From Bacteroidales bacterium (GTDB lineage: Bacteria; Bacteroidota; Bacteroidia; Bacteroidales; VadinHA17): 37,766 nucleotides of DNA. Shown here in pieces: positions 6,680-33,103 of this stretch (its first letter is position 1; the number at the start of each line of letters is the position of its first letter). Position numbers and translations under genes: made by a program. Location of the stretch: contig JANYIW010000123.1 of the NCBI GenBank assembly GCA_025358645.1, positions 1-37,766 of the forward strand. The letters are read 5' to 3'. The notes under the pieces are model-generated. The model was not told the DNA's origin and made no database searches. It worked only from the letters and a program-made list of their open reading frames with translations.

Positions 6680-7258
6680 CTATTTCTTCTTGTTTTTCTT
6701 CTCCACAGAAAAACCAAATTTACCTATTAAACTGCCTGTTTCATAATATTTTCCATGCGAATAGCAGATAGGTTCTGCGTCGTTTAATCTGAACAGGCCG
6801 GTATTTTTATCAATATATTTTTCATCGGCATTGACGGCTACCACCTCTGATATAAACATGTGGTGCGATCCAAGTTCTTTTATTTCCTTAACTATACATT
6901 CAATATTGATTGGCGATTCTTTAATCAAAGGCGCCTTTACCTTTGAAGCAGGAACAGGAGTAAGCCCCATTTCAGAAAACTTTTTATGGTCCTTTCCTGA
7001 TTTTACCCCACACCAGTCTGTTGCAAAAGCAAGTGATTTTGTCGTCAGGTTGATAACATACTCACCATTATTTTTTATTATATTATAGGAGTGACGGCCA
7101 GGCCTTACAGAAATGTAACACATTGCCGGATCACTACATATAGTACCAGTCCATGAAACCGTAATAATATTATACTCTTCAGGTACAGATCCACAACTTA
7201 CCATTACCGCCGGTAGCGGATAAATCATCGTTCCGGGTTTCCATAAAACTTTACTCAT
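6680..7258 (-). CDS. Flavin reductase family protein (FMN-binding split barrel)
   Basis: 192-aa protein of the flavin reductase-like/DIM6-NTAB family, which binds FMN and either reduces flavin with NAD(P)H or acts as an FMN oxidoreductase. Typical features in order: WKPGTMIYPLPAVMVSCG at the N terminus, NIITVSWTGTICSDPAMCYISV (FMN phosphate-binding strand region), RHSYNIIKNNGEYVINL, then ATDWCGVKSGKDHKKF and the C-terminal YSHGKYYETG. Cytoplasmic; ends in a basic tail (KKNKKK). Transcribed divergently from clpB with its own -7 box. Which electron acceptor it serves cannot be told from sequence. Confidence 0.85.
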   Translation of the reverse strand: MSKVLWKPGTMIYPLPAVMVSCGSVPEEYNIITVSWTGTICSDPAMCYISVRPGRHSYNIIKNNGEYVINLTTKSLAFATDWCGVKSGKDHKKFSEMGLTPVPASKVKAPLIKESPINIECIVKEIKELGSHHMFISEVVAVNADEKYIDKNTGLFRLNDAEPICYSHGKYYETGSLIGKFGFSVEKKNKKK

Positions 7259-7282: not shown

Positions 7283-7367
7283 GTTTTAAATCTTTGACAG
7301 ATTGGCACAAAAAGGTGATAATACGATGTCAAAAAGACATTGAAATGAAATTGATCAACACTGGCAG

Positions 7368-7375
7368 TAATTTTG
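7368..7375 (+). promoter_or_regulatory. -7 element of the clpB promoter
   Basis: TAATTTTG at 7368-7375 matches TAnnTTTG, 25 nt before the clpB ATG, giving a short leader of about 20 nt. The -33 element is weak. A small hairpin (ATGTC-AAAAA-GACAT, 7326-7340) lies just upstream; I see no CIRCE element. Confidence 0.45.
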
Positions 7376-7400
7376 CAGAACATTACTCAAACAACGCAAT

Positions 7401-9998
7401 ATGAATTTAAATAATTTCACCTTAAAAGCTCAGGAATCAGTTCAGAAAGCTTTTGACATTGCTAACGCCAAAGGCCAGCAAGCTGTTGAATGTGCACATA
7501 TTCTCAAAGGAGTAATGAGCGAGGCAGAGAGTATCACAAATTTCCTCTTCGGGAAAATGGGAGTAAATTCTGTCGCTCTGGCAAAAGAGATTGATAGTCT
7601 TATTGATTCATATCCAAAGGTTACAGGTGCAGATTCCTATGTATCGTCTTCAGTATCAGATGCATTCAGGAAAGCAAATAACCATGCCACACAAATGAAA
7701 GACAAATTTGTATCATCAGAACACTTGCTCATGGGAATCCTTGATACTGAGGACAAAGCATCGCGTATCCTTAAGGATTTGGGTGTGACAATGAAAGAAC
7801 TGAAAGCTGCTGTCAATGAACTTAGAAAAGGTGCAACTGTGGAGAGTCAGACTTCAGATGATACTTTTAATTCGCTGAACAGGTTTGCAATCAATCTGAA
7901 TGAGAGAGCGCGGTCAGGGAAACTCGACCCTGTCATAGGTCGGGATGATGAAATAAGGCGTATTCTACAGATACTCACACGGCGGACAAAAAATAATCCG
8001 CTACTGATAGGTGAACCTGGGGTTGGGAAAACAGCTATTGCTGAAGGTTTGGCTCATAGGATAATCAGGGGTGATGTTCCTGAAGATATTAAATCAAAGA
8101 TCATTTATTCACTCGATATGGGATCCCTTATAGCGGGAGCAAAATATAAAGGAGAATTTGAAGAAAGATTAAAATCAGTTGTGAACGAAGTTATCGGATC
8201 AAATGGGGAAGTAGTCCTTTTTATCGACGAGATTCATACCCTTGTTGGCGCCGGTAAATCTGAAGGAGCTATGGATGCCGCCAATATTCTGAAACCTGCT
8301 CTTGCCAGGGGTGAGTTGAGAGCGATAGGAGCAACTACCTTAAGTGAATATCAGAAATACTTTGAAAAAGACAAGGCTCTTGAAAGAAGATTCCAGGTTG
8401 TTATGGTTGATGAGCCCGACAGGACAGATTCCATTTCGATACTGAGAGGTATCCGTGAGAAATATGAAACACATCATAAAGTTATTATCAGAGATGAAGC
8501 GCTCATTGCAGCTGTAGACCTGTCAACAAGGTATATAACCAACCGGTTCTTACCGGATAAAGCAATCGACCTTATTGATGAAGCCGCATCGAGATTAAGA
8601 CTTGAGATGAATTCCGTTCCTGAAGAGATCGATGAAGCTGAAAGAACTATTACCCGTCTTGAAATTGAAAAAGAGGCGCTCAGGAGGGATGGAGATACCG
8701 TTAAGGCAGAAAAAATATCACGTGATCTTGCTGATATGCAAGCGAAAAGGGATGAGCTGAAAGCCGGATGGAAGGCTGAAAAAGAAATGATTGATAAGGT
8801 GCAGGTTAAAAAAGAGTCCATCGAGTCTCTTCGTCTTGAAGCAGAACAGGCTGAGAGAAGCGGCGACTATGGAAAAGTAGCGGAGATACGGTATGGAAAA
8901 ATAATTGAAATTGAAAAGGAAATTTCAGAACTTAAGGATCTAATCGAAAAGAAACGAACTAAAGGGTCGCTGATACAGGAAGAGGTACGATCGGAAGATA
9001 TTGCTGCCATAGTGTCTAAATGGACGGGAATACCTGTCTCCCGGATGCTCGAAAGTGAAAAAGAAAAATTGTTAAAGCTCGAATCTGAATTACACAAAAG
9101 GGTAGTCGGGCAGGATGAAGCAATTACAGCAGTTGCTGATGCAGTCCGCAGGTCGCGGGCCGGACTGCAGGACCAGAAAAAACCATTGGGTTCCTTTATT
9201 TTTATAGGAACCACCGGCGTGGGAAAAACAGAATTGGCGAGGGCTCTTGCCGGATTCCTCTTTAATGATGAAAATCTGTTGACACGGATAGATATGTCTG
9301 AATACCAGGAAAGACATTCTGTATCGAGGCTTATTGGCGCACCTCCGGGATATATTGGATATGACGAAGGAGGACAACTCACTGAGGCTGTCCGGCATAA
9401 ACCATATTCAGTAGTTCTTCTCGATGAGATTGAAAAAGCACATCCCGACCTGTTTAACCTGCTACTCCAGGTACTTGATGAGGGCAGACTTACAGATAAT
9501 AAAGGAAGGACAATAAATTTCAGAAACGTTATTATTATCATGACATCGAACCTCGGATCAGAACTTATAAGAGACAGGATGGATAAATTGGACAATAAAA
9601 TGTCGGAAAAGGAAGAGGAAATACTCAGGAAAGAAATATTTACACTATTAAGAAGAACACTCAAACCGGAATTTCTTAACAGGGTTGACGAAATTGTAAT
9701 GTTTAAACCTTTAACTAAAGAACAGATTAGGGCAATCGTGGAAATTCAACTGGTTAATATAGAGCATACTCTTGCCGGATATCAACTGAAATTAGTTGTT
9801 AGAGATGAGGCTATTGACTGGTTGGCAGAAAAAGGTTATGATCCTCAATTGGGGGCAAGACCAGTAAAAAGACTTATTCAAAAAGAGATTGTAAATGAGT
9901 TATCCAAAGAAATTATTGGTGGAAAGGTATCCAAAGAGGAGACAATAATAGTTGATGTGGAAAATGGTCATCTCTCTTTCAAAAAAAAATCCAAATGA
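7401..9998 (+). CDS. clpB: ATP-dependent disaggregase ClpB
   Basis: Hexameric AAA+ chaperone that with DnaK/DnaJ/GrpE pulls polypeptides out of aggregates after heat stress. The 865-aa length and layout are canonical: Clp N domain with two repeats (1-145), first AAA+ module with Walker A GEPGVGKT (204-211) and Walker B LFIDEIH, a coiled-coil middle domain rich in Lys/Glu (about 400-530) that distinguishes ClpB from ClpA/ClpC, second AAA+ module with Walker A GTTGVGKT (603-610) and [13 protein letters not shown], and a C-terminal domain with FLNRVDEIV and [13 protein letters not shown] start, no in-frame alternative needed. Convergent with the STAS gene, only 11 nt apart, with no obvious terminator between them. 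Confidence 0.97.
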
Positions 9999-10864: not shown

Positions 10865-12937
10865 ATGAGATATTTTCTCTTGCCATTAATTGGGGTATTT
10901 ATTCTGAATTCTTCAGGCCTGGATGCCCAGACAGATATCACCATCCATCGTAAGGATTTTAAAACTGATAAATCTGGATTTGGAGAAGCATGGAAACATG
11001 TCGTTAACGCAGATGCTTATTATGGTGAAAAAGGCATCTGGTACAATGATGCATATAATGAATATCTACAAGCTCTGGTTTATAATAATTCAAATTCCGA
11101 ATTGAATTATAAGACAGGGGTGTCAGCTCTTCTCTCAGATAATAAGGAAGAAGCAGCAGGTTTTTTTCTGAAGGCTATTGAAATTAAGAAAGATGTTGCT
11201 GAAGATGTCCTTTTACTCACCGGACGATCACTTCAATATTCCGGAAAATTTCCGGAAGCAATTGAAAAATTCACTGGTTACCTGAGCTCGCCGGGAAAGA
11301 AGAGTAAGAAAAACACATCGTTGGCACGGAAATGCATACAGGAATGTAATTCCGCTATAATTATAACGAAAGATACAATGAGAGTATCAATAAAGAACCT
11401 GGGGCCAGAAATTAACTCTAATTCTGACGACTATTCTGAAGTTTTAACTGATGACGGTAATACAATGTACTTTGCTACCCGTCGTCAACTTCCAAAATCG
11501 GGTAATCGCCATTCTGACACAAAATTTGATGAAAATATCTTTATTTCGCACTTGGCTTCTGGTTCCTGGTCAACAGCCATTTCAGCAGGAAAAAACCTGA
11601 CTACAAAGCTCAATGAAGCGCCTCTTTATATAAATTCAGCTAATAACATACTCTACATTTATACCGGTTATTCAAATAATGGTGACATAAAAATGTCATT
11701 GAATAAGAAAGGAATCTGGAAAACTCCCGTAGCTATTCCGTATCACATAAATACCAGAGGTTCAGAAACTTCATTTACAATAAATCCTTCAGGGAACGAG
11801 ATTTACTTTGTCTCCGATAATGCTAAAGATAATATTGGTGGTAAAGACATCTACTATATAAAGAAGATTAATTCACGTAAGTGGTCAAAACCACAAAATG
11901 CCGGGAGTATAATTAATACTATTTATGATGAGGAGTCTGTGAGATTTTCAAAAACCGGTGATACTCTGTGGTTTAGTTCACAGGGTCACAACTCAATAGG
12001 TGGGTTTGATATATTTTATAGCATTAGAAATAAAAATGGTGCATGGGATAGTGTAAAAAATGCAGGCTACCCGGTAAACTCTCCATGGGATGAGATCTTC
12101 TATAATCCTTCACAGGTTGATGACAGCTCATTTTATTTTGTTTCGAATCGCGCAGGAGGATTAGGCGGAACAGATATCTACCACGGACAGATTTTGCCAC
12201 CTAAACCTGTTATCGTAATTCCACCGCCACCCGCACGAGATACTGTTATAATAAGGGATACCGTTTTAATTGTTGCACCACCACCACCTGTAGCCCCGGC
12301 CATCCAACCGGAAAACCCGGTTTTTCTTATAGGAAAAGTAAAAGATTCAGAGACAGGTGAACCGGTATTGGCTAAAATTGACCTCAAAGATATTTCAAGC
12401 GGGGAAGTTATTGGAACTACTGCAAGTTCGGATGAGGACGGTAGTTACAGACTGACCCTGCCTGTCAGGAAATCTTATGAGATTGATCTTCACGCAACAG
12501 GATTTTTATCAGAGACAAGGCGTATTGACGTCCCCGATAACTGGTTGAAAGAAGTTTATAATCTTAATATTGAATTGATTAAGGTAAAGGTTGGCAAGAA
12601 AGTTGTACTGAACAATATTCTGTTTGAATCCGGGAAATCTATACTGACATCAGGTTCAGATACAGAACTCGATCGTTTATTGAACATCATGAAGGGAAAT
12701 GCTCAGATGAAAATTGAAATATCCGGACATACTGATAAAACAGGAAGCGAATCACTTAACTTTAAATTATCGGGAGCGCGGGCAAAAGCTGTTGTAGATT
12801 ACCTGGGTCAGAACGGGATCGATCGCTCACGAATGGAATTCAGGGGTTATGGTTCATTACAACCTATAGCTGATAACGCCACCGTTGCCGGACGGACTAA
12901 AAACAGAAGGGTTGAGTTTAAAATCCTTGAATTCTGA
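10865..12937 (+). CDS. PorE-like TPR / beta-propeller / CRD / OmpA C-terminal protein
   Basis: 690-aa secreted protein, cleaved after a signal peptide (about 1-21, ...GLDA/QTD), no lipobox Cys. Domains in order: TPR-like helices (about 35-165), WD40-like PD40 repeats (about 180-440; repeated GGxDIYY/GGFDIFY/GGTDIYH motifs), a proline-rich linker (about 447-475), a carboxypeptidase-regulatory-like domain (about 480-565) and an OmpA C-terminal peptidoglycan-binding domain (about 575-690; ISGHTDKTGSESLNFKLSGA and NRRVEFKI). This matches the type IX secretion component PorE of Porphyromonas gingivalis in architecture and length, but paralogues with the same design are common in Bacteroidota. A near-consensus -7 box (TACTTTTA, 10836-10843) with TTTC 21 nt upstream lies before the ATG. 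No other T9SS gene is in the window. Confidence 0.82.
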   Translation: MRYFLLPLIGVFILNSSGLDAQTDITIHRKDFKTDKSGFGEAWKHVVNADAYYGEKGIWYNDAYNEYLQALVYNNSNSELNYKTGVSALLSDNKEEAAGFFLKAIEIKKDVAEDVLLLTGRSLQYSGKFPEAIEKFTGYLSSPGKKSKKNTSLARKCIQECNSAIIITKDTMRVSIKNLGPEINSNSDDYSEVLTDDGNTMYFATRRQLPKSGNRHSDTKFDENIFISHLASGSWSTAISAGKNLTTKLNEAPLYINSANNILYIYTGYSNNGDIKMSLNKKGIWKTPVAIPYHINTRGSETSFTINPSGNEIYFVSDNAKDNIGGKDIYYIKKINSRKWSKPQNAGSIINTIYDEESVRFSKTGDTLWFSSQGHNSIGGFDIFYSIRNKNGAWDSVKNAGYPVNSPWDEIFYNPSQVDDSSFYFVSNRAGGLGGTDIYHGQILPPKPVIVIPPPPARDTVIIRDTVLIVAPPPPVAPAIQPENPVFLIGKVKDSETGEPVLAKIDLKDISSGEVIGTTASSDEDGSYRLTLPVRKSYEIDLHATGFLSETRRIDVPDNWLKEVYNLNIELIKVKVGKKVVLNNILFESGKSILTSGSDTELDRLLNIMKGNAQMKIEISGHTDKTGSESLNFKLSGARAKAVVDYLGQNGIDRSRMEFRGYGSLQPIADNATVAGRTKNRRVEFKILEF

Positions 12938-19337: not shown

Positions 19338-20261
19338 ATGAATAAAAAATATGGAATTTGTTCAAAAATTCTGGTAGTAGTTTTAATGTTTACCAGTCTG
19401 CTTATGGGCTGCAAGTCCGGAGGTACAAAGACAACTAAGGAAGAGGTAAAAGTTAGTATTCCAAAAGAGAACGCAACCGTAGTTGAAGATATTCAGCAGG
19501 CAGAAAAAATATTTAATGCACTGCCATCACCCCTTGAGTCAGCTATGCTCATAAAATCAGCTGGTGCAAGGTTCGATGAGTCTTTGCTCAATCCTATAGG
19601 TAATGTAAATAGTTATGTAACGAATAAAAGCATGGCTCTTAATCTGGGAATTTATACCTGCGATTTAAGTTTTGCAAGTCTATATGAACAGACTCAACTT
19701 ATTATTGATTATATGAACGCTGCCAAGAAAATGGCTGATGGGCTGGGCATTCTTAAGGCAATTGAACAGTCACAAATTGATAAATTAGAGGAAAATATCA
19801 ACAACAGTGAGGTTATTATGGAGATTGTAAGTGAGACCTTTATGAACTCTAATTCATATCTTTCAGATAATGGTCAACCCGCGATTGCAGCAATGGTACT
19901 GGTAGGCGGATGGTTCGAGGGATTATATATTTCTACTCAACTTGTTGATTTGAAGGAATTTAATGGCAATAAGCTTGTCGGCAGGATTATTGATCAAAAG
20001 CTTTCGATCGACATACTTTTAAATTTACTTGAAAGCAGTAAAGGGAATCCTGCAGTTGATGATCTGATTTTTCAGGTTAAAAAACTGAAAGTCGTTTTTG
20101 ATAAAATATCAATCACAACTTCAAAAATAAGACCAGAGTTTGACAAAGTATCAAATATGACAGTTCTAAAGTCAGAGGTTAAGACTGATATGACACCTGA
20201 AGTATTCAGGGAACTCTCAGTAACTGTTTCAGAGATAAGAAAGACATTCGTAAATAACTAG
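19338..20261 (+). CDS. Hypothetical lipoprotein, 307 aa
   Basis: I do not recognise the family. The N terminus is a lipoprotein signal: basic start (NKKYGICSK), hydrophobic core ILVVVLMFTS, lipobox LLMGC with Cys25, then a polar KSGGTKTTKEE tether. The mature part is largely helical, with a central segment NLGIYTCDLSFASLYEQTQL and a hydrophobic stretch AIAAMVLVGGWFEGLYIS (about 181-198) that may be a buried helix rather than a membrane span. The C-terminal third (FQVKKLKVVFDKISITTSKI...) looks like a long amphipathic helix. Four nt before the secreted 147-aa protein gene, so the two form an operon. Envelope-located by inference. Confidence 0.8.
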   Translation: MNKKYGICSKILVVVLMFTSLLMGCKSGGTKTTKEEVKVSIPKENATVVEDIQQAEKIFNALPSPLESAMLIKSAGARFDESLLNPIGNVNSYVTNKSMALNLGIYTCDLSFASLYEQTQLIIDYMNAAKKMADGLGILKAIEQSQIDKLEENINNSEVIMEIVSETFMNSNSYLSDNGQPAIAAMVLVGGWFEGLYISTQLVDLKEFNGNKLVGRIIDQKLSIDILLNLLESSKGNPAVDDLIFQVKKLKVVFDKISITTSKIRPEFDKVSNMTVLKSEVKTDMTPEVFRELSVTVSEIRKTFVNN

Positions 20262-24671: not shown

Positions 24672-25376
24672 TTATTGATTTAAAAAGTATATCGAATGGC
24701 AGGCTGCAACGCCTGCCGTTTCTGTTCTAAGACGACTTGGCCCAAGATGAACCTGAAAAAAATCTCTGTTGACTGCAGCATCAATCTCATCCCTTGTGAA
24801 ATCGCCTTCCGGTCCGATCATTATTATTACACTATCACTTTTTGAATATGCATCAGGCACCCTGCTTCTTACCATTGAATCATTACAATGAGCAATCATC
24901 CTGACGCCTTTTGAATCCATATTTATAAAATCTTTGAAATTACATGGTTCATTTAGTACCGGCTTTGTTGCTTTAAGAGATTGTTTCATTGCCGAAATGA
25001 TAAGATTGTTAACTCTTCCCGACTTTATTCCCGGCTTTTCAGTATTTCTGCAAACCAGAGGAGTAATCTCATCGATACCTATCTCAACACTCTTTTCAAT
25101 AAACCATTCAAATCGTTCAGGATTCTTTAATGGTGAGATGGCAATATGAAGCCTGTAATTCCTTTTTTCAAAATCCTTAATTTCCCCTGTGATTTCAATT
25201 CTGCACTTGTTCTGATCCGGTTCGCTTATGATTCCCTCATACAGATTCCCTTTACCGTCAATCAGCCTGACCTCAGCGCCTCTTGTCATTCTTAATACCC
25301 TGATCAAATGCCTTGACTCGTTTTCGTCAAGTGTATACGTTTTGCCAATAATATCAGGTGCATAAAATATCTGCAT
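24672..25376 (-). CDS. rsmE: 16S rRNA (uracil-1498-N3)-methyltransferase
   Basis: SPOUT-class methyltransferase that makes m3U1498 in 16S rRNA. 234 aa when started at the ATG at 25376 (QIFYAPDIIG), which matches the family N terminus; an upstream in-frame ATG at 25532 would add 52 residues of unlikely sequence that cover the divergent promoters. Motifs: HLIRVLRMTRGAEVRLIDGK (PUA-like N domain), SPLKNPERFEWFIEKSVEIG, IGPEGDFTRDEI, and LGPSRLRTETAGVAA, which forms the SAM-binding trefoil knot. Converges on the 65-aa gene 84 nt away. Its promoter -7 box is at 25392-25399. Confidence 0.93.
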   Translation of the reverse strand: MQIFYAPDIIGKTYTLDENESRHLIRVLRMTRGAEVRLIDGKGNLYEGIISEPDQNKCRIEITGEIKDFEKRNYRLHIAISPLKNPERFEWFIEKSVEIGIDEITPLVCRNTEKPGIKSGRVNNLIISAMKQSLKATKPVLNEPCNFKDFINMDSKGVRMIAHCNDSMVRSRVPDAYSKSDSVIIMIGPEGDFTRDEIDAAVNRDFFQVHLGPSRLRTETAGVAACHSIYFLNQ

Positions 25377-25391
25377 AGAAACCAGTTTATG

Positions 25392-25399
25392 CAAAATTA
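25392..25399 (-). promoter_or_regulatory. -7 element of the rsmE promoter
   Basis: The complement of 25392-25399 reads TAATTTTG, a full TAnnTTTG match, 16 nt before the rsmE start. A TTG lies 23 nt upstream of it. Confidence 0.4.
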
Positions 25400-25412
25400 G
25401 ATATTTTGAGTA

Positions 25413-25420
25413 TATCTTTG
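25413..25420 (+). promoter_or_regulatory. -7 element of the yfcE-type phosphoesterase promoter
   Basis: TATCTTTG at 25413-25420, a full TAnnTTTG match, 26 nt before the ATG at 25446. It is 13 nt from the rsmE -7 box on the other strand, so the two divergent promoters overlap and RNA polymerase may bind them exclusively. Confidence 0.45.
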
Positions 25421-25445
25421 TGCAACTTTGAGAAATCCTTTTATT

Positions 25446-25952
25446 ATGAAGATTGGTCTGCTTTCCGATACGCACGGCTGGATTCACCCACGGCTTTTTG
25501 ATCATTTTGCTGATTGTGATGAAATATGGCATGCAGGAGACATTGGAAACGTTGAAACAGCAGATAGACTTTCAAGCTTCAAACCTTTGAAAGCTGTTTA
25601 CGGTAACATTGATGATGCAGTGATAAGAAGTATTTATAAAGAGAATTTAATTTTCATGGCTGAAGAAATCAGGGTTTGGCTTACCCATATTGGTGGAACA
25701 CCCAGCCATTATGACCGCAGATTATTACCTTCTCTGAGAGAAAATCCTCCAGATCTTTTTATTTGCGGACATTCACATATCGCAAAGGTGATGAATGATA
25801 AAAAGTCAGGATTTTTATATATGAATCCTGGGGCTGCTGGTTATAACGGTTTTCATAAGTATATGACAGCAATTAGGTTTCATATTGATGGGAAAAACAT
25901 TCACGATCTTGAATTGATAGAGCTTGGCGAGCGGGGCAGGGTCATTTTATAA
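25446..25952 (+). CDS. YfcE/MJ0936-family metallophosphoesterase
   Basis: 168-aa calcineurin-like phosphodiesterase of the YfcE/MJ0936 type, two-metal enzymes active on phosphodiesters in vitro. Metal ligands are all visible: D8 and H10 (LLSDTHG), D32 (HAGDIG), N54 (VYGNIDD), H81 (THIGG), H109 and H111 (CGHSH). Start at 25446 because the protein then begins MKIGLLSDTHG as in the family; the in-frame ATG 18 nt upstream is less likely. Its last 11 nt overlap the end of the convergent 1502-aa gene. The physiological substrate is unknown. Confidence 0.92.
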   Translation: MKIGLLSDTHGWIHPRLFDHFADCDEIWHAGDIGNVETADRLSSFKPLKAVYGNIDDAVIRSIYKENLIFMAEEIRVWLTHIGGTPSHYDRRLLPSLRENPPDLFICGHSHIAKVMNDKKSGFLYMNPGAAGYNGFHKYMTAIRFHIDGKNIHDLELIELGERGRVIL

Positions 25953-28900
25953 GACCATTGAGATCCCTTGAATTATCTTCGGCTTTGTTATCCGCCATTC
26001 TCTGAAGGAATTTGCTAAGCCGGTCTTCAACTGCAATCATATATGTATAGGGTACTTTTATTGTTGATTCAGGGTGTTTCCTATCATTAAGTTTCGTTTT
26101 GGCAATAATTGTATTATAACTGTTGTTCCCCGACTGTGTCATCATCACACCTCTGAAATATGAGAAATAATACCAGGTAGATTGATCTGCTTTCAGATAT
26201 ATATCAATCAAATCACCCGATCTTCTTCTCTGAATCTCAATATAGCCGTCAACATAAACATTTACAGGTTGTGGTCCAATGAATCCGATACCTATTTTAC
26301 CTGTCGATCGGAAGGATGCTGTAGATTCATTCCAGAAGAGTTTTACATCGTTTAGAAGAAGTTCGTATTTAAATTCCTTCGGCAGGTTCCTTGTTGCGCC
26401 GAACAAATCCATGTCCTCTTTTAATTGTGATGCAATATTCACTCCCAGGAGATCCTTCATAGCCTTATTATTCAGATCTGAATTCAGATTAACAGGTTTA
26501 AGCGATGGCATCATTCTTATTTCATCTGCCATAACTTTAAGGGCTTCAGAGGAGAAATGAAAATCAAGGGCAAGGATTGTATTAATGTTAACTTTACCCG
26601 AATCAAGGACATGAACTACATTGCCGGCACTGGTAAGTTTAACAAGGTCAAGCTTTGCTCCAAAATCAATATGTCCCTCTCCCGACAATATGCAGTAGTT
26701 TTTATCAAAGCCAATCATATTCCCCGGAAGAGTCTGATCAATAAGCTTTTCACGCGAGGCGATTAAGTATCTGCCTTTTGCTTTTTCGTAGTAGAGCCAT
26801 CCATTTGAGTTTACCAGAGCAACATCGGACCAAGATTTTTGGGCAGAAAGGAAAGTCGGATATATATGAATAGAATCAATATTTATGAAAGATCCGGAAA
26901 CTACAAGATTATCATTCATGTCTCTGGGTTTCTCAACGACGGGGATCATAACATTTTTTGGATCGATCTGGTATTTGAATTTGAGTGAATAGCTCTCGAT
27001 TGTTCTGCAATTATGCAAGATACCTGCAGCTCCTGTAAAAGTAAGATTATCGGCCCTGGCTGAGAGGGCAACATCACCGGAAAATGAGAAAGCAGGACTT
27101 AGCATGAATTTTTGAGATACAGGTATATAGCCTTTCGCGTAGGTTGTTGCCGTATCGACCTCCAATTCCGGAAAATTAATTTTCTGAATCTCTTTATTTT
27201 CATCCAAATAATCGTAAATAGCGCTACCGGTATATCTTTTTGTTGATTCAATATCAATCTTTGCAGAATGCAATATGTGTCTGTGGTTCAAAGCAATGAC
27301 CGCATTCTGCATTTGTTGAATTTTAGCTCTCCGGTTAATTATAATCTTCCCATTTTCTGGTTGAATAAGTGCATCAGCAATATGAATATAATTTATGTTT
27401 TCCGCTTCAATAAATTCCTGATCAAGATGATAACTTCCTTTCCATGATGAGAAAGCGACTGTATCAGAAAGATTGTTTGTGGCAAAGAAAGTCGGCTTAT
27501 CAAGTCTGGTGAAGTCAAGCTTTATAAGTTTATCAGTTGTTAAAAGAGGAATATTCGACTTTCCCTTCTGCTCCATATTGAGAATACGGTTTTCCATATT
27601 ATAAGTAAAATCTGTCATTGTACAGATATATTGGATCTCTGGAAATTTTACAACTGATGAATCAGTATTTAGCCTGAAGTGTGCCATCTTAAGATCAAAA
27701 TTGATCTCTGTATTGGCATTTTCGGCAATAAATGAATACCCGTTTGTGGAAAGCGATTTGAGAGTATAATCAGCAGTATCGGCCTTAATTGCATTCGATG
27801 TAAAATTGAAAAGATTGGAAGTGACTCTGGAATCGGTTAAATTAATTATTCCTGTACCATTGAGTCTTGCCGGGGAAAGTGATAATTTGCCATCAAGGGT
27901 TGTTCCATTCCCGAACATATTAAAAGTCTTTCCTTCTGCGGTGGTTGCTATCCATTCATCTTTTTGAGTCAGCCATCTGACTGCAACATCCTGGCTGGTA
28001 AGTATGGGGAATATTCCTGATCCGTCTTTTTCAATATTGAAAGTCGAGGCATGGGTGATCATGGAATCAGGAAAGAATTTAAATTCATCCGATACAGTTG
28101 TGGATGTCAAATGTTTTATAGTCCCGCTTCCTATCAGTCCCTTGTTACTCATGCTAAGAGCATTATATAATATACCCCTGTTCCCATACACTTCAATCCC
28201 TTCCGAAGGGATGGTCATATTAAATCCTAACGAGTTGTTTTCCTGTATAACCAGATTCTGACGTATGGGTTTAAGAATATTTCCTCCCACAAATTCTCCC
28301 GATAACTTCAAATCCTTATTTGTGTAATGGTCTAGATTTTCGTATGTGAAAGGATCAATCTTGAAATAAAAATCCTTTTGTTTGTAAACACCCTCAAGTC
28401 CGGCTATCTTATCATAGAAAATATATGAGTTTGTAGTTGCATTTATGATCGGATACTGCTTCAGGCTCTTTAATCCGGATTTGTTATCCGGTTTATCGAT
28501 ATAAAGTTCCGCTGAACCCAGTTGAATAAGATTCTCTACATTTTGAATAATTGTATTACCCAGTTTATCCCTCTTTTCGGTCTCAACAGAGATTTTTATG
28601 GAATCGATTTTCTGAAGCCATATCTTAAATGTATCATAGCTGAATGAGAAATTATGCCCGAATACTGTAAATAGACCTGCATCAACGATACCGTCAAAAT
28701 TAATGTTTCTGTTTTTACCGATTATCAATTGTTTATTATAAGGATAAATTGCAACTTTCTGGGAATCGCTAAGCAGGACGCTGGATACACCATTTATTGT
28801 CAGACCATATTTTTTCATGTCAAGAACAGCATTATCAGCAGGCGCTCTTGTTTCGCTGACTATATTTATGATATCATAGTCTTTTTTTCTGGCATAAGAA

Positions 28901-30450
28901 TTGAGGAAATCCTTTGTTTTTTTCTTTATTGTGACCTCATTATTAATTCTATCATAGAAAATAAAACCCTTATTGGCCATATCGATGCATAAACCGGTAA
29001 CAGCCTCTACGGGCCTATTAAGCCATCTGGCAAATTCAGCAACGGGAAATGTTTCGGAGTAGAACCATTCTGCAAATTTAGTCAGCCGGTTTAAAGGATG
29101 GTATTCATCGAGTCCCATCAACTGTAAAAAATAGGCTGAATTAAAGAACGAAGTAGATTCAAATTCTGCATGTCCAAGAGAGGCTCCTCTTGCATGCGAA
29201 AGAACAATTTTAAAATCGTTCATATTCCACGACAAATATTCAAAATACATGTCAAGATTGTGAAATGAATCGAAATAGGGACTCCTGGATATCGGATTAC
29301 TTGTGCGGAAGAGATTTACCTGTCTGGTAGAAACAAAGTATGAAAACCCCAGGTTTGAATGGTATATTGAATCCTTGTCAAGATAAAGCGACATGGTAAC
29401 TTCCTGGCTGATTAATCCGGTTTTTGAGAAGAGAAATTCTTTTGAACGTATTTTGAGATAAAGAGTATCATTTCTGAAAAGAGTAATTTTCGCCAGGTCA
29501 GCATTTTTACCGGTTCCCTTCACATTAGCCCCTTCAAATGTGAGTCCACCTTCATAATTAACACCCTTGTATATGTTTTTAATCTTAAATTCTTTTGCAT
29601 AAGTTTCAAAGCGAGGATAGTTAGCTTTTTCCTTGTTCGTAAAGCTTATTGCCTGGTCGGCAAGTAAACCGGTAACCGGTTCTTTAAAATAGGTAGCATG
29701 CGTAAGTTTCGCAGAATCAACGGTGAAACTGCTTTTCGTCATATTTATTGCATAACCGGTGAGTTCAGCAAAAACTTCATTACGCGGATATCCGGCTTTT
29801 TCCCAGGTAACAACACCTTTTGTGCCCCTGAATTGCTGGGTTTCAGGATAGTAACTTCCCGTGACATTGTAAATTTCTGTACTGTCTTTTTGAGAATAGC
29901 ATGTTAGTGTAGCGTTGGAAACAGTAACATAAATAGCAGTGTCGTGCAAAAATTTAAGAGTATTATTCTTTACCTTCCATTTAACACTTCCAGATTCGAA
30001 GAGCACATTTTCTTTGACCATCAGACCGCTATTCTTAAAATACCGATCGATATTGTCATTTGTAAACGTCTGACTGAATGCTAATTCACTTAAGCCTTTA
30101 AACCAATTTGTGAAAAAAGAGACGTCACGTTTATATTCGATGAAATAATTCAGGGTCAACAGAAAATCATTAAAGTGGGGTACAGGTCTCATTTGTCTCG
30201 ATGATAACTGAACCGAAACATTAATTATTCTATTCATTATATCAGAACTGAAAGCAGAGCTGTCCCATCTGGAAAGGAATGTATTAAGGTTTGCAAGCTG
30301 ATCGGCATTAAGGTTCGGTCCCATATAAGATGTGAGTTCGGTTCTGAACTTTGCAGGATCTCCGGAAAATGCAGATTTGGCCTGGGAATGCAATATCCCG
30401 GTAAAAACCAAAAAGATTAACGGAATCAGAATTACCAGCTTTTTTGACAA
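25942..30450 (-). CDS. Giant secreted protein of unknown function, 1502 aa, apparent TTG start
   Basis: One of the largest genes here and not one I recognise. It starts at TTG (complement of 30448-30450): between the tpiA stop, which is in frame, and this codon there is no ATG, and the next residues SKKLVILIPLIFLVFTG form a signal peptide ending ...LHSQA. Residues about 30-125 are helical; about 140-430 and 560-1440 are rich in alternating beta strands with recurring TxxxS/N-x-G turns. Between lies a mixed segment (about 440-540, LGHAEFES, RLNRPVEAVTG, KKKTKDFLNSYARKKDY). The end (VEDRLSKFLQRMADNKAEDN) is helical and charged; there is no type IX sorting domain and no aromatic C-terminal outer-membrane signature. 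It is predicted periplasmic or outer-membrane associated. Lies 21 nt behind tpiA. Confidence 0.85.
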   Translation of the reverse strand: MSKKLVILIPLIFLVFTGILHSQAKSAFSGDPAKFRTELTSYMGPNLNADQLANLNTFLSRWDSSAFSSDIMNRIINVSVQLSSRQMRPVPHFNDFLLTLNYFIEYKRDVSFFTNWFKGLSELAFSQTFTNDNIDRYFKNSGLMVKENVLFESGSVKWKVKNNTLKFLHDTAIYVTVSNATLTCYSQKDSTEIYNVTGSYYPETQQFRGTKGVVTWEKAGYPRNEVFAELTGYAINMTKSSFTVDSAKLTHATYFKEPVTGLLADQAISFTNKEKANYPRFETYAKEFKIKNIYKGVNYEGGLTFEGANVKGTGKNADLAKITLFRNDTLYLKIRSKEFLFSKTGLISQEVTMSLYLDKDSIYHSNLGFSYFVSTRQVNLFRTSNPISRSPYFDSFHNLDMYFEYLSWNMNDFKIVLSHARGASLGHAEFESTSFFNSAYFLQLMGLDEYHPLNRLTKFAEWFYSETFPVAEFARWLNRPVEAVTGLCIDMANKGFIFYDRINNEVTIKKKTKDFLNSYARKKDYDIINIVSETRAPADNAVLDMKKYGLTINGVSSVLLSDSQKVAIYPYNKQLIIGKNRNINFDGIVDAGLFTVFGHNFSFSYDTFKIWLQKIDSIKISVETEKRDKLGNTIIQNVENLIQLGSAELYIDKPDNKSGLKSLKQYPIINATTNSYIFYDKIAGLEGVYKQKDFYFKIDPFTYENLDHYTNKDLKLSGEFVGGNILKPIRQNLVIQENNSLGFNMTIPSEGIEVYGNRGILYNALSMSNKGLIGSGTIKHLTSTTVSDEFKFFPDSMITHASTFNIEKDGSGIFPILTSQDVAVRWLTQKDEWIATTAEGKTFNMFGNGTTLDGKLSLSPARLNGTGIINLTDSRVTSNLFNFTSNAIKADTADYTLKSLSTNGYSFIAENANTEINFDLKMAHFRLNTDSSVVKFPEIQYICTMTDFTYNMENRILNMEQKGKSNIPLLTTDKLIKLDFTRLDKPTFFATNNLSDTVAFSSWKGSYHLDQEFIEAENINYIHIADALIQPENGKIIINRRAKIQQMQNAVIALNHRHILHSAKIDIESTKRYTGSAIYDYLDENKEIQKINFPELEVDTATTYAKGYIPVSQKFMLSPAFSFSGDVALSARADNLTFTGAAGILHNCRTIESYSLKFKYQIDPKNVMIPVVEKPRDMNDNLVVSGSFINIDSIHIYPTFLSAQKSWSDVALVNSNGWLYYEKAKGRYLIASREKLIDQTLPGNMIGFDKNYCILSGEGHIDFGAKLDLVKLTSAGNVVHVLDSGKVNINTILALDFHFSSEALKVMADEIRMMPSLKPVNLNSDLNNKAMKDLLGVNIASQLKEDMDLFGATRNLPKEFKYELLLNDVKLFWNESTASFRSTGKIGIGFIGPQPVNVYVDGYIEIQRRRSGDLIDIYLKADQSTWYYFSYFRGVMMTQSGNNSYNTIIAKTKLNDRKHPESTIKVPYTYMIAVEDRLSKFLQRMADNKAEDNSRDLNGLIK

Positions 30451-30471: not shown

Positions 30472-31230
30472 TTAAAATGCTTCCACTATAGCTGTAAAAT
30501 CCTCTTTTTTAAGAGCTGCACCACCTATCAATCCACCATCAACATCTGGTTTAGAAAAGATTTCATTGGCATTTGATGGTTTGCAGCTACCTCCATAAAG
30601 AATCGGAAGTTTTTTTGCGCAATCATTGCCATATTTCTCTTTAACCAGATCACGGATGTACTTATGCATTTCCTGCGCCTGATCAGGCGTTGCAGTCAAT
30701 CCTGTTCCGATTGCCCAAACTGGTTCATAAGCCAGAACAATCATATCCATTTGTTCCTCAGTAAGGTTGAATAATCCTTCCTGAAGTTGTCTTTTTACAA
30801 TAAGAAAATGTTGTCCGGCTTCCCTTTCTTTTAATACTTCACCTATGCAAAAAATAACCTTCAATCCGCTGTTAATAGCTAGTAAAGTCTTTTTATTCAG
30901 AAGTTTATCATCCTCATGATAGTAAGTTCTTCTTTCAGAATGCCCTATTATAACATACTGGGCGCCGGTACTTTTTACCATCCAGGCTGAAACTTCACCT
31001 GTAAAGGCACCGGAAGCCTCGGCTGCACAGTTTTGAGCGCCAAGCGCTACCTTCCCGTGTTTAAGAATTTCGCCCACTCCAGCCAGATGTATAAACGGTG
31101 GACATAAGATAACCAATGCTTTATCCGAAGGAGTTTCCCTGAAATACTTTTCAATCGATCCGGCGAACTTCATGCCTTCTGCCAGATCCATATTCATTTT
31201 CCAGTTACCGGCAACAATCTTCTTTCTCAT
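30472..31230 (-). CDS. tpiA: Triosephosphate isomerase
   Basis: Interconverts dihydroxyacetone phosphate and glyceraldehyde 3-phosphate in glycolysis and gluconeogenesis. 252 aa, complete TIM barrel, with catalytic Lys11 (GNWKMN), His97 (IIGHSERR) and Glu169 (AYEPVWAIGTG), and the phosphate-binding loop YGGSCKPSNA and GGLIGGAAL near the C terminus. ATG start. Sits 72 nt after the DoxX/thioredoxin-like gene and 21 nt before the giant secreted protein gene on the same strand, so all may share transcription. Confidence 0.97.
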   Translation of the reverse strand: MRKKIVAGNWKMNMDLAEGMKFAGSIEKYFRETPSDKALVILCPPFIHLAGVGEILKHGKVALGAQNCAAEASGAFTGEVSAWMVKSTGAQYVIIGHSERRTYYHEDDKLLNKKTLLAINSGLKVIFCIGEVLKEREAGQHFLIVKRQLQEGLFNLTEEQMDMIVLAYEPVWAIGTGLTATPDQAQEMHKYIRDLVKEKYGNDCAKKLPILYGGSCKPSNANEIFSKPDVDGGLIGGAALKKEDFTAIVEAF

Positions 31231-31302: not shown

Positions 31303-32412
31303 TCATCTTTGTATGTTTAGTTTTCCAAACCATTCTGGTTCAGGAACATTTGCCCATGACCATTTTTTAATAATTATTCCATCTTTAAGCAAAATATAAC
31401 CCGGATTTGCTCTTACCATTGTCTTCAAAGTAGTCTCATCTGCGGAACAGAAATTCAACCCGTTTTCATAACTTTTCACCTCATCTGTTCCTGAAGAGGT
31501 GAGAATATAAAAGTTAATTCCGTTTGACACGCAATAATTGCCAAGTTTAAATCCTTCAGATAAAGATCTTTGTCCTGCCTCAGAAAGTTTTTTAGTTATC
31601 ATTAAAACAGAATAGCCGGAGTAAGATAGTATATTTTGAGTAAGATCCTCTCCATTTAATGCAGTTATGATAAAATCATGTATAGGAGGTTTGTATCCTT
31701 TTTTTATCAGGACGGATTTCTGATCAACAAACTTCCATGTTGAATCATCAGCCGGATAGTTATTAATGTTAAAATCCTTTTTGACGCCGTTTTTTTCATA
31801 AATAAATGTAGTGCTGTACTCATCGCCCGGAACTCCGTCGGGGGTAATCATTTTATCGGCAATTTTCACTCCTGATTTATACGGGAGGAAATCAATAACA
31901 GGTAAATATCTGAGGTTTGCCAGTGAAAAAATAACAAAAATAACAGTAGTTATAATTATTATAATCCATTCAGTTGTTTTCCCCTGGATACTCCTAATCT
32001 GGTTTGTACCTGTATAAAGTACTATCAATAAGGAAACTAAGACTATATTTTTTCCAAATGTCTGCCAATTTGTAAGATGGATTGCATCGCCGAAACAGCC
32101 ACAGTCTGAAACGGGATTAGTCAGAGCAAGCATGAATGTAAGAGGAGTAAAGATTACCAGAAGAATAAAGACTCCCAGGATTCCTGTTTTCTGCCTGAAA
32201 CCTGTAAGTAATGAAAAACCTGCGATAAATTCAGCCGTACACAGGAGGATGGAAAGAGGGAGGCTTAGATTATTAAGAAACCCAAGATGAAAAGCCTGAA
32301 AATAATCATGGAATTTATACGCGGAGCCCAGCGGATCAATTGCTTTAACTACTCCGGAGAAGATAAATACCAGACTAATTATTATTCTGCTCAGAATCCT
32401 TATAATCTTCAT
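31303..32412 (-). CDS. DoxX/MauE-type membrane protein with C-terminal thioredoxin-like region (BT_3928-like)
   Basis: 369 aa from the ATG at 32412, one nt after the tmk stop; an ATG at 32442 would add ten residues and overlap tmk. The N-terminal ~140 residues hold four membrane helices of the DoxX/MauE redox-associated type (IIISLVFIFSGVVKAIDP, LPLSILLCTAEFIAGFSLLTG, LGVFILLVIFTPLTFMLAL, VLVSLLIVLY) with a CGCFGD motif between helices 3 and 4. A further helix (IIIIITTVIFVIFSLANL) leads to a periplasmic region of about 190 residues whose end resembles a thioredoxin fold (YILTSSG, NFCSADETTLKTMVRANPGY, ILLKDGIIIKKWSW) but lacks a CxxC. Probably an envelope redox or electron-transfer protein. 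The family name is from memory. Confidence 0.78.
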   Translation of the reverse strand: MKIIRILSRIIISLVFIFSGVVKAIDPLGSAYKFHDYFQAFHLGFLNNLSLPLSILLCTAEFIAGFSLLTGFRQKTGILGVFILLVIFTPLTFMLALTNPVSDCGCFGDAIHLTNWQTFGKNIVLVSLLIVLYTGTNQIRSIQGKTTEWIIIIITTVIFVIFSLANLRYLPVIDFLPYKSGVKIADKMITPDGVPGDEYSTTFIYEKNGVKKDFNINNYPADDSTWKFVDQKSVLIKKGYKPPIHDFIITALNGEDLTQNILSYSGYSVLMITKKLSEAGQRSLSEGFKLGNYCVSNGINFYILTSSGTDEVKSYENGLNFCSADETTLKTMVRANPGYILLKDGIIIKKWSWANVPEPEWFGKLNIQR

Positions 32413-32413
32413 T

Positions 32414-33103
32414 TCAAACGCGCTTTTTATTATTGAAAACATTTAATATAAGATTAAATATTTCAGAAGGAGTAAGCATCGTCCCATTGCTGTTACCACA
32501 ATTGACAACCGCCAGCCGGTCATCCGATTTTGAAACTCTCAGATAAATATCCCTGACCTTTTTCTGAAATACTATACTCTCTTCATGGATATCACGGATT
32601 CCGTTAAGATAATTCCGGTCATTTCCGGTTCTTGTTTTCATTAAATTTTTTTCTGCAAAAGCAAATGGAACATCGAGGAAAATATTAAGGTCGGGTTTTG
32701 GAATTGCAAAATGATTAAACTCGAGAGACAAAATCCAGTTCATAAGTTTATCCTGGCTCTTTATATCATTTAACTTGGCACATTGATACGCTATATTTGA
32801 ATATGTATATCTGTCGAGCAGGACAATCTTTCCTTCAGTCAGCCAATTGCTGATTATGGCTGAAGCATCTTTTCTGTCACCTGCATAAAGCATTGCAACC
32901 AGGTATGGATCAACATCGTCCAATAATCCGAATTCACCTCTTAAAAACCTTGCAATAAGCTCTCCGAAGTATGGGGTTTCAGTTCTGGGGAAGTGCATAT
33001 ATTCACAGTCGTACCCTTTCTTTGATAAAAAGTCTCTTAACAACTTAATCTGTGTTGATTTGCCGGCGCCATCCACCCCTTCAATAACTAAAAGCTTCAT
33101 CAT
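32414..33103 (-). CDS. tmk: Thymidylate kinase (dTMP kinase)
   Basis: Phosphorylates dTMP to dTDP with ATP. 229 aa, P-loop GVDGAGKST (9-17), the dTMP-binding arm HFPRTETPYFGELIARFLRG, and the DR(Y/H) motif LLDRYTYSNIAYQ, then FLDVPFAFAEKNL and the lid KTRTGNDRNYL. Two adjacent ATG codons at the start; the first is used here. First gene of the minus-strand group tmk-DoxX-tpiA-giant protein, with a full TAnnTTTG box 21 nt upstream. Divergent from folP, another thymidylate/folate-related gene. Confidence 0.93.
   Translation of the reverse strand: MMKLLVIEGVDGAGKSTQIKLLRDFLSKKGYDCEYMHFPRTETPYFGELIARFLRGEFGLLDDVDPYLVAMLYAGDRKDASAIISNWLTEGKIVLLDRYTYSNIAYQCAKLNDIKSQDKLMNWILSLEFNHFAIPKPDLNIFLDVPFAFAEKNLMKTRTGNDRNYLNGIRDIHEESIVFQKKVRDIYLRVSKSDDRLAVVNCGNSNGTMLTPSEIFNLILNVFNNKKRV

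Follow-up and report, generated by a model that had tools for sequence, protein, structure and literature searches.

The DNA analysed here, hereafter the window, is a stretch of 37,766 nucleotides from contig JANYIW010000123.1 of a Bacteroidales bacterium in VadinHA17 (assembly GCA_025358645.1). On its minus strand, at positions 25942-30450, lies a coding sequence for a protein of 1502 aa that begins with TTG (30448-30450) and ends with a stop codon at 25942-25944. The gene encoding triosephosphate isomerase, tpiA (30472-31230, minus strand; Pfam TIM, E = 1.6e-91), is located 21 bases upstream. A sequence-only reading of the window had described an open reading frame of this length behind tpiA; the frame exists, and its orientation is corrected here: translated on the plus strand, the interval is full of stops, and the open frame belongs to the minus strand.

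In the window, as at most loci of the same genus, the gene for the 1502-aa protein is preceded by tmk, a MauE-domain gene and tpiA, in that order, and followed by a convergent phosphoesterase gene and rsmE; the neighbours differ from this order at one locus of the genus (L023). The phosphoesterase gene (Metallophos_2; 25428-25952, plus strand) runs towards the 1502-aa gene and shares 11 bases with the 3' end of that gene, while its other end is overlapped on the opposite strand by an open reading frame for an rsmE-like RNA methyltransferase (24672-25532). The MauE-domain membrane protein is encoded between tmk and tpiA (31303-32442, minus strand), and a MauE-like gene was also observed shortly upstream of tpiA in many distant loci. 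Elsewhere in the window, on the plus strand, were a 690-aa protein with PD40, CarboxypepD_reg and OmpA domains (10865-12937) and a 307-aa open reading frame (19338-20261) with an N-terminus that looks lipoprotein-like by eye and with no Pfam match at E 0.001.

Inspection of the sequence between the tpiA stop and the signal peptide revealed no ATG, in agreement with the TTG start proposed from sequence alone. The nearest relative (L002, 97% identical in protein sequence) has ATG where the window has TTG, as do three further loci (L007, L011 and L026, at 80%, 73% and 72% identity), and at most of the other loci shown an ATG lies one to a few codons away. Because relatives use ATG at or near the same codon, we consider the TTG start sound and very likely the true one. 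The dN/dS ratio relative to the window's gene was 0.06-0.10 (dS was computable for 13 of 23 pairs), by which measure the gene is under purifying selection.

The only strongly hydrophobic 19-residue segment in the protein is its N-terminus, with a Kyte-Doolittle value of 2.1 as compared to a maximum of 1.0 outside residues 1-30; this bears out the signal peptide of the sequence-only reading, and the same scan revealed no second membrane segment. The signal peptide comprises residues 1-22 (30385-30450, minus strand, as are all parts of the protein given below), with cleavage predicted before Gln23 on the basis of hydrophobicity and of the alignment. Gln occupies this column in 59 of 63 alignment rows, and in 53 of those 59 the preceding residue is A, G or S. 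Under the Bacteroidetes Q-rule (PMC5837995, PMC10653852), proteins cut by signal peptidase I begin with Gln once mature, and the predicted site fits that rule. Given the predicted Q-rule cleavage and the single hydrophobic segment, the cleaved form is probably a soluble periplasmic protein.

Behind the signal peptide, the predicted models divide the protein into a helical N-terminal domain (residues ~30-147; 30010-30363; block pLDDT 78-91), a first beta stretch (residues 149-431; 29158-30006) that appears LptA/LptC-like over residues ~252-410, a putative embedded winged-helix domain (residues 437-525; 28876-29142), and a long beta region (residues 526-1320; 26491-28875) with predicted Lpt-like jellyrolls at ~526-740 and 794-1009 and a remainder that was not reliably modelled. 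The C-terminal part (residues 1321-1485; 25996-26490) is delimited by conservation, its fold being uncertain; it includes a conserved RRRSGD...YLK...WYYFSY stretch at residues 1408-1431. Both the helical N-terminal region and the long beta stretches anticipated from the sequence thus appear in the predicted model. Several Pfam helix-turn-helix models matched weakly, each in one of 31 relatives, their positions not being given.

Searches of profile libraries and sequence databases support the earlier impression that the protein belongs to no known family. No Pfam or NCBIfam model reached its cut-off, no PHROG or PADLOC model matched at E 0.1 or better, and no Pfam or NCBIfam match was common to more than two of 31 diverse members. 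Sequence searches of the PDB returned only chance matches, with a best E of 2.4 for the protein itself and 0.72 for a 63-row profile. Two weak candidates, CAP12 TIR (E 0.018, in one of the 31 members) and archaeal DPS (E 0.005, in two of the 31), were dismissed, both lying far below cut-off. No OstA/Lpt, TamB or AsmA Pfam model was among the matches of the protein or of the 31 members. The sequence-only reading had named the bridge-like AsmA/TamB and LptD/OstA folds for comparison; no sequence homology to OstA/LptA or TamB emerged: against 21 OstA_2 proteins, the best hhalign P was 0.078, on the signal peptides, and 0.083 over 50 columns; for 18 TamB proteins, trimmed to 941-984 aa, it was 0.14. 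The literature matches listed include no description of the family. We therefore regard it, on the evidence of the libraries searched and the literature matches listed, as previously undescribed.

The family is widespread nonetheless. All 27 loci found in a search for related loci carried the title Bacteroidales, Bacteroidia or Bacteroidetes. In a sample of 60 relatives the gene was present in 52 genomes, namely the window's own, 34 of 35 congeners and, from the rest of the order, 17 of 24. Of the 34 positive congeners, 29 encode an almost complete protein, 57-97% identical and in one case with an internal stop, and five have it in pieces; the sole congener without it is a genome of 78% completeness. 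The patchiness among close relatives that the sequence-only reading had set as grounds for its own rejection is thus absent. Across the class the gene was found in 245 of 295 genomes (208 of 253 good ones), mostly, among the matches listed, as open frames near 1,500 residues, and mostly at one locus per genome. Outside the genus, members with about 24-37% identity align collinearly along nearly 1,500 residues. That a protein of ~1,500 residues can lack a Pfam or NCBIfam model despite its presence in 245 of the 295 Bacteroidia genomes sampled is itself worth recording.

The gene is not universal: 50 of the 295 class genomes (45 of the 253 good ones) gave no match, and in a phylum-wide sample the gene was found in only 10 of 247 genomes, the window's own included. 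The phylum sample comprised very complete genomes only, and 20 of its 237 negatives were listed; we therefore draw from it no verdict on the family outside the class. When 80 genomes (54 previously negative, 26 positive) were searched with the 63-row profile, no gene was recovered in the 54. Judged by these samples, the protein family is old in the class Bacteroidia and stable within the genus, and certain taxonomic families lack it.

Some members are broken. Two orthologs are split near positions 7028-7101 (L019) and 7341-7401 (L021) of their loci, the former at a deletion and the latter at an NN with a local duplication, and both splits look like assembly faults; these two loci, with L025 and L028, were left out of one of the alignments. 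In a one-contig genome of 2.27 Mb (G141), the orthologous region (L250, 283-4892) is divided into three frames of 542, 364 and 618 aa, with one frame break near the boundary between winged helix and beta region; gene fission, decay and sequencing error are all candidate explanations.

Gene order across the class retains traces of an old neighbourhood. In distant members the order is tpiA-prmA-gene-plsY, and for one of them (L059) Pfam confirmed both PrmA and G3P_acyltransf. Among 60 loci, fetched for their spread over families and not at random, plsY, the gene for glycerol-3-phosphate acyltransferase, followed directly on the same strand in 23, with a gap of <80 bases or an overlap in 21 of these; prmA lay at most two genes upstream at 39 loci, and either tpiA or prmA at most three genes upstream at 44. 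These counts are lower bounds, as each kind of neighbour was identified by BLAST against a single reference. Within the window's own genus (stretches L002-L048), neither plsY nor prmA was recognised near the gene. The core operon proposed by the sequence-only reading therefore stands as regards tpiA, whose linkage is old, but prmA and plsY join the group in other lineages and were not recognised in this one. Proteins of ~650-2,130 aa that match the window's 690-aa OmpA-domain protein locally were encoded at most three genes downstream in 15 of the 60 loci, after plsY in 11 of the 15.

On the gene tree, adjacency to plsY occurs both in the window's own order and elsewhere, and accounting for it requires 15 changes, at least 10 of them forced. 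Shuffled labels required 17.8 changes, and 30 of 500 shuffles were as low as 15; the label is thus only weakly clustered and is scattered on the tree. The tree was built from 63 rows (56 of the 60 fetched loci, the window and six related loci), 21 of them with plsY; L083, L101, L115 and L118 were left out, and the dropped L115 and L118 also have plsY. Because the same adjacency occurs in so many branches, the natural reading is that plsY was an ancestral neighbour that was lost many times, which would explain the pattern better than repeated gain. Genomes without the gene were compared as well: none of 20 prmA regions fetched from them contained it, tpiA-prmA was kept in six of the 20, and in one (L244) prmA is directly followed by plsY, an empty site. 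In this set, the open reading frames of L241 did not show its prmA, and L233 ends ~2.5 kb after prmA. Given these prmA regions and the negative whole-genome profile searches, the absences look like true losses rather than divergence beyond detection.

Structure was predicted in two overlapping models from 24 sequences each, covering residues 1-1000 (model 1; mean pLDDT 68.5, middling) and 530-1502 (model 2; 47.5, poor). In model 1, the signal helix and six more helices reach to residue 147; beta structure then continues to 431 and resumes beyond a small helical or winged domain at 437-525. In VIA-align comparisons of model 1, ranks 1-7 were all chains of LptA, LptC or LptD, matched on two parts of the protein (~526-743 and 858-966). 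The Z scores of these and of the Lpt matches below, at 8-10, exceed by only a moderate margin the 7-8 that models lacking a clear match usually reach. The matches included LptD at residues 526-734 (Z 9.4, rmsd 4.1, 153 aligned), LptC at 527-680 (Z 9.3, rmsd 2.9, 115 aligned) and LptA at 858-964 (Z 9.8, rmsd 3.3, 100 aligned). The first beta stretch matched LptH at rank 9 (residues 252-396; Z 8.5, rmsd 3.8, 120 aligned) and LptC at rank 14 (residues 279-410; Z 8.1). Most other rows were winged-helix chains, mostly of the MarR family.

For model 2, the first ten VIA-align rows were all Lpt proteins. Five (9ia5, 9kn3, 9rpr, 9ia2 and 8h1s) have rmsd values of 20-21 because distant parts were joined. 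The tight matches were LptD 5iv9 (residues 794-1009; Z 9.9, rmsd 3.7, 150 aligned), LptH 4uu4 (residues 846-992; Z 9.8, rmsd 3.4, 124 aligned), 4q35 (Z 9.8, rmsd 5.3, 156 aligned), LptD 7omm (Z 9.1, rmsd 4.2, 155 aligned) and LptC 6mit (Z 8.1, rmsd 2.7, 138 aligned); 4q35, titled 'a membrane protein', we take to be LptD. By Foldseek, neither model had a match at E <= 0.001; its first four rows for model 1 were LptD chains (4q35 included), and for model 2 ApoB, teneurin and OspA ranked above LptD, which was 48th. TamB and AsmA chains were absent from the structural rows listed for both models, which is no evidence against that fold. Taken together, these comparisons make an Lpt-like fold in parts of the protein somewhat more likely than not, a claim that covers residues up to 1009 and leaves 1010-1502 aside.

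Two further analyses of the beta regions gave no support. A candidate internal repeat (~277-422 versus 822-964; hhalign P 2.4e-4, score 35.5, the best of 36 pairs) was rejected: without insert states it scored 25.9, below the eight best (28.5-36.7) of 200 block-shuffled controls made without inserts. Beta-type alternation of hydrophobicity gave z values of 4.5 for residues 526-1320, 1.9 for 150-435 and 7.5 for TamB, but -0.4 for OstA_2, so that the measure is no marker of Lpt-like proteins and was given no weight. Roughly 80 strands can be counted outside the winged helix from both models, the last 24 of them from the poor one; by our estimate, two stacked sheets of such strands at 4.8 A could approach the width of the periplasm.

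PlsY starts phospholipid synthesis, and it is the old linkage to plsY, together with an exported protein of Lpt-like predicted fold, that makes a lipid conduit our best single guess: a soluble periplasmic protein, tied to the supply of outer-membrane lipid, that would channel or hold an acylated substrate between the inner and outer membranes. We offer this tentatively, at a little short of an even chance. The protein would be exported by Sec and cleaved by signal peptidase I, leaving an N-terminal Gln, presumably as pyroglutamate; its N-terminal helices would form a docking domain, followed by an extended LptA/LptC/LptD-like beta-jellyroll (beta-taco) sheet that the winged helix interrupts. 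The cargo, given the old plsY linkage, would probably be a phospholipid or another lipid derived from glycerol-3-phosphate, and because the protein seems to have no membrane anchor, docking to partners at both ends would be needed. In this account the gene, its conservation and its synteny are established, the cleaved signal and the lack of a further membrane segment are sequence predictions, and the Lpt-like fold of parts is backed by predicted structure; lipid binding, the span across the periplasm and the substrate are what we infer. The best structural likeness, to the jellyrolls of LptA, LptC and LptD, is to one of the bridge-type folds that the sequence-only reading named, but a periplasm-spanning function is in our account, too, a matter of inference. 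Several points weigh against the conduit: the middling and poor models with their moderate Z scores, the Foldseek results, the negative profile comparisons, the failed internal repeat, and a plsY linkage that was seen in a minority of the 60 loci and was not recognised in the window's own genus. In addition, genomes without the gene live without it. Compensation by AsmA is not supported, as there is no AsmA surplus in such genomes: 40 of them gave 67 AsmA matches as compared to 73 in 40 genomes with the gene (one protein may give several matches), and no AsmA match was found in 10 of the former 40 and two of the latter.

The Lpt-like predicted stretches might also suggest that the protein is the lipopolysaccharide bridge itself, in place of LptA. 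This is very improbable, since open frames for OstA_2 (LptA-like, 526 aa), LptD_2 (911 aa) and TamB (1516 aa) are present separately in the same genome, and OstA_2 occurs regardless of the gene (in 40 of 40 genomes without it and 38 of 40 with it), so that the two do not replace one another; the protein is an extra envelope component. A more serious contender, though one we think unlikely, is that the protein serves in the periplasm as a chaperone or scaffold for proteins of the outer membrane or the cell surface, in the manner of TamB or as an accessory to the type IX secretion system (T9SS), its groove handling polypeptide instead of lipid. For Bacteroidota TamB, which also has a predicted beta groove, one account discusses substrates passing along it and does not exclude transport of outer-membrane proteins (PMC12045153). 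The T9SS translocon SprA was found in all 26 gene-bearing genomes tested, but also in 45 of 54 without the gene; the T9SS therefore does not need the protein, and a requirement of this kind was rejected, as T9SS dependence fails to explain the distribution. Nor was linkage to T9SS or BAM genes recognised at the 60 loci, where only neighbours resembling a small reference set were named.

Less probable again is a secreted structural or adhesive surface protein of irregular beta fold, in which the likeness to Lpt would be a by-product of long antiparallel sheets. The single-layer sheet proteins OspA and TCP10 do reach Z 6.7 and 7.6 in model 2, OspA is among the Foldseek rows, and confidence in the fold is limited. 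The constraint on the gene, its usually single copy, its collinearity in members outside the genus and its conserved housekeeping neighbours argue otherwise, and the protein's Pfam and NCBIfam matches include no T9SS C-terminal domain model. Returning to the lipid conduit, we would add a bolder form of it, which we rate as unlikely: a third kind of bacterial lipid bridge between the two membranes, next to the AsmA/TamB and MCE proteins, in which a soluble single chain of Lpt fold and about 80 predicted strands spans the Bacteroidota periplasm, carries phospholipid and was ancestrally encoded with plsY. Such a bridge could have been overlooked because it is absent from the families that dominate the most complete genomes. 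The route of phospholipid to the outer membrane in Bacteroidota is unsettled, and a concrete candidate is offered by this envelope protein, which is conserved and under constraint, has a predicted fold resembling Lpt and has plsY as an old neighbour.

Among known systems, the closest in predicted structure are the N-terminal jellyrolls of LptA, LptC and LptD (the OstA fold), which are likewise exported and are the best VIA-align matches of both models. LptA is soluble, as is expected of the 1502-aa protein, which is about nine times the length of LptA of E. coli. The differences are that the 1502-aa protein forms one long chain with a predicted helical N-terminal domain and embedded winged helix, that its genome encodes an LptA-like protein and LptD besides, and that it has no detectable sequence homology to LptA/OstA, the likeness of fold coming from middling and poor models. 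The winged helix itself (residues 437-525) superposes on MarR-type chains with Z up to 8.5; unlike them, it sits inside an exported protein, so that DNA binding is unlikely and a protein-protein module is the more probable role. The resemblance to TamB and AsmA is one of length (close to that of the genome's own TamB frame), of a long beta-rich periplasmic chain and of a possible groove. TamB and AsmA are anchored in the inner membrane (PMC12045153), whereas in the 1502-aa protein a predicted signal-peptidase site with Gln at +1 and the lack of another hydrophobic segment would weigh against such an anchor; it also has no Pfam match to TamB or AsmA, and the profile comparison with TamB was negative. 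Given these negative sequence comparisons, and an apparently cleavable signal in place of an anchor of the TamB type, we file the protein under neither LptA/OstA nor TamB/AsmA; if our reading is right, it works in the manner of the Lpt and bridge-type carriers.
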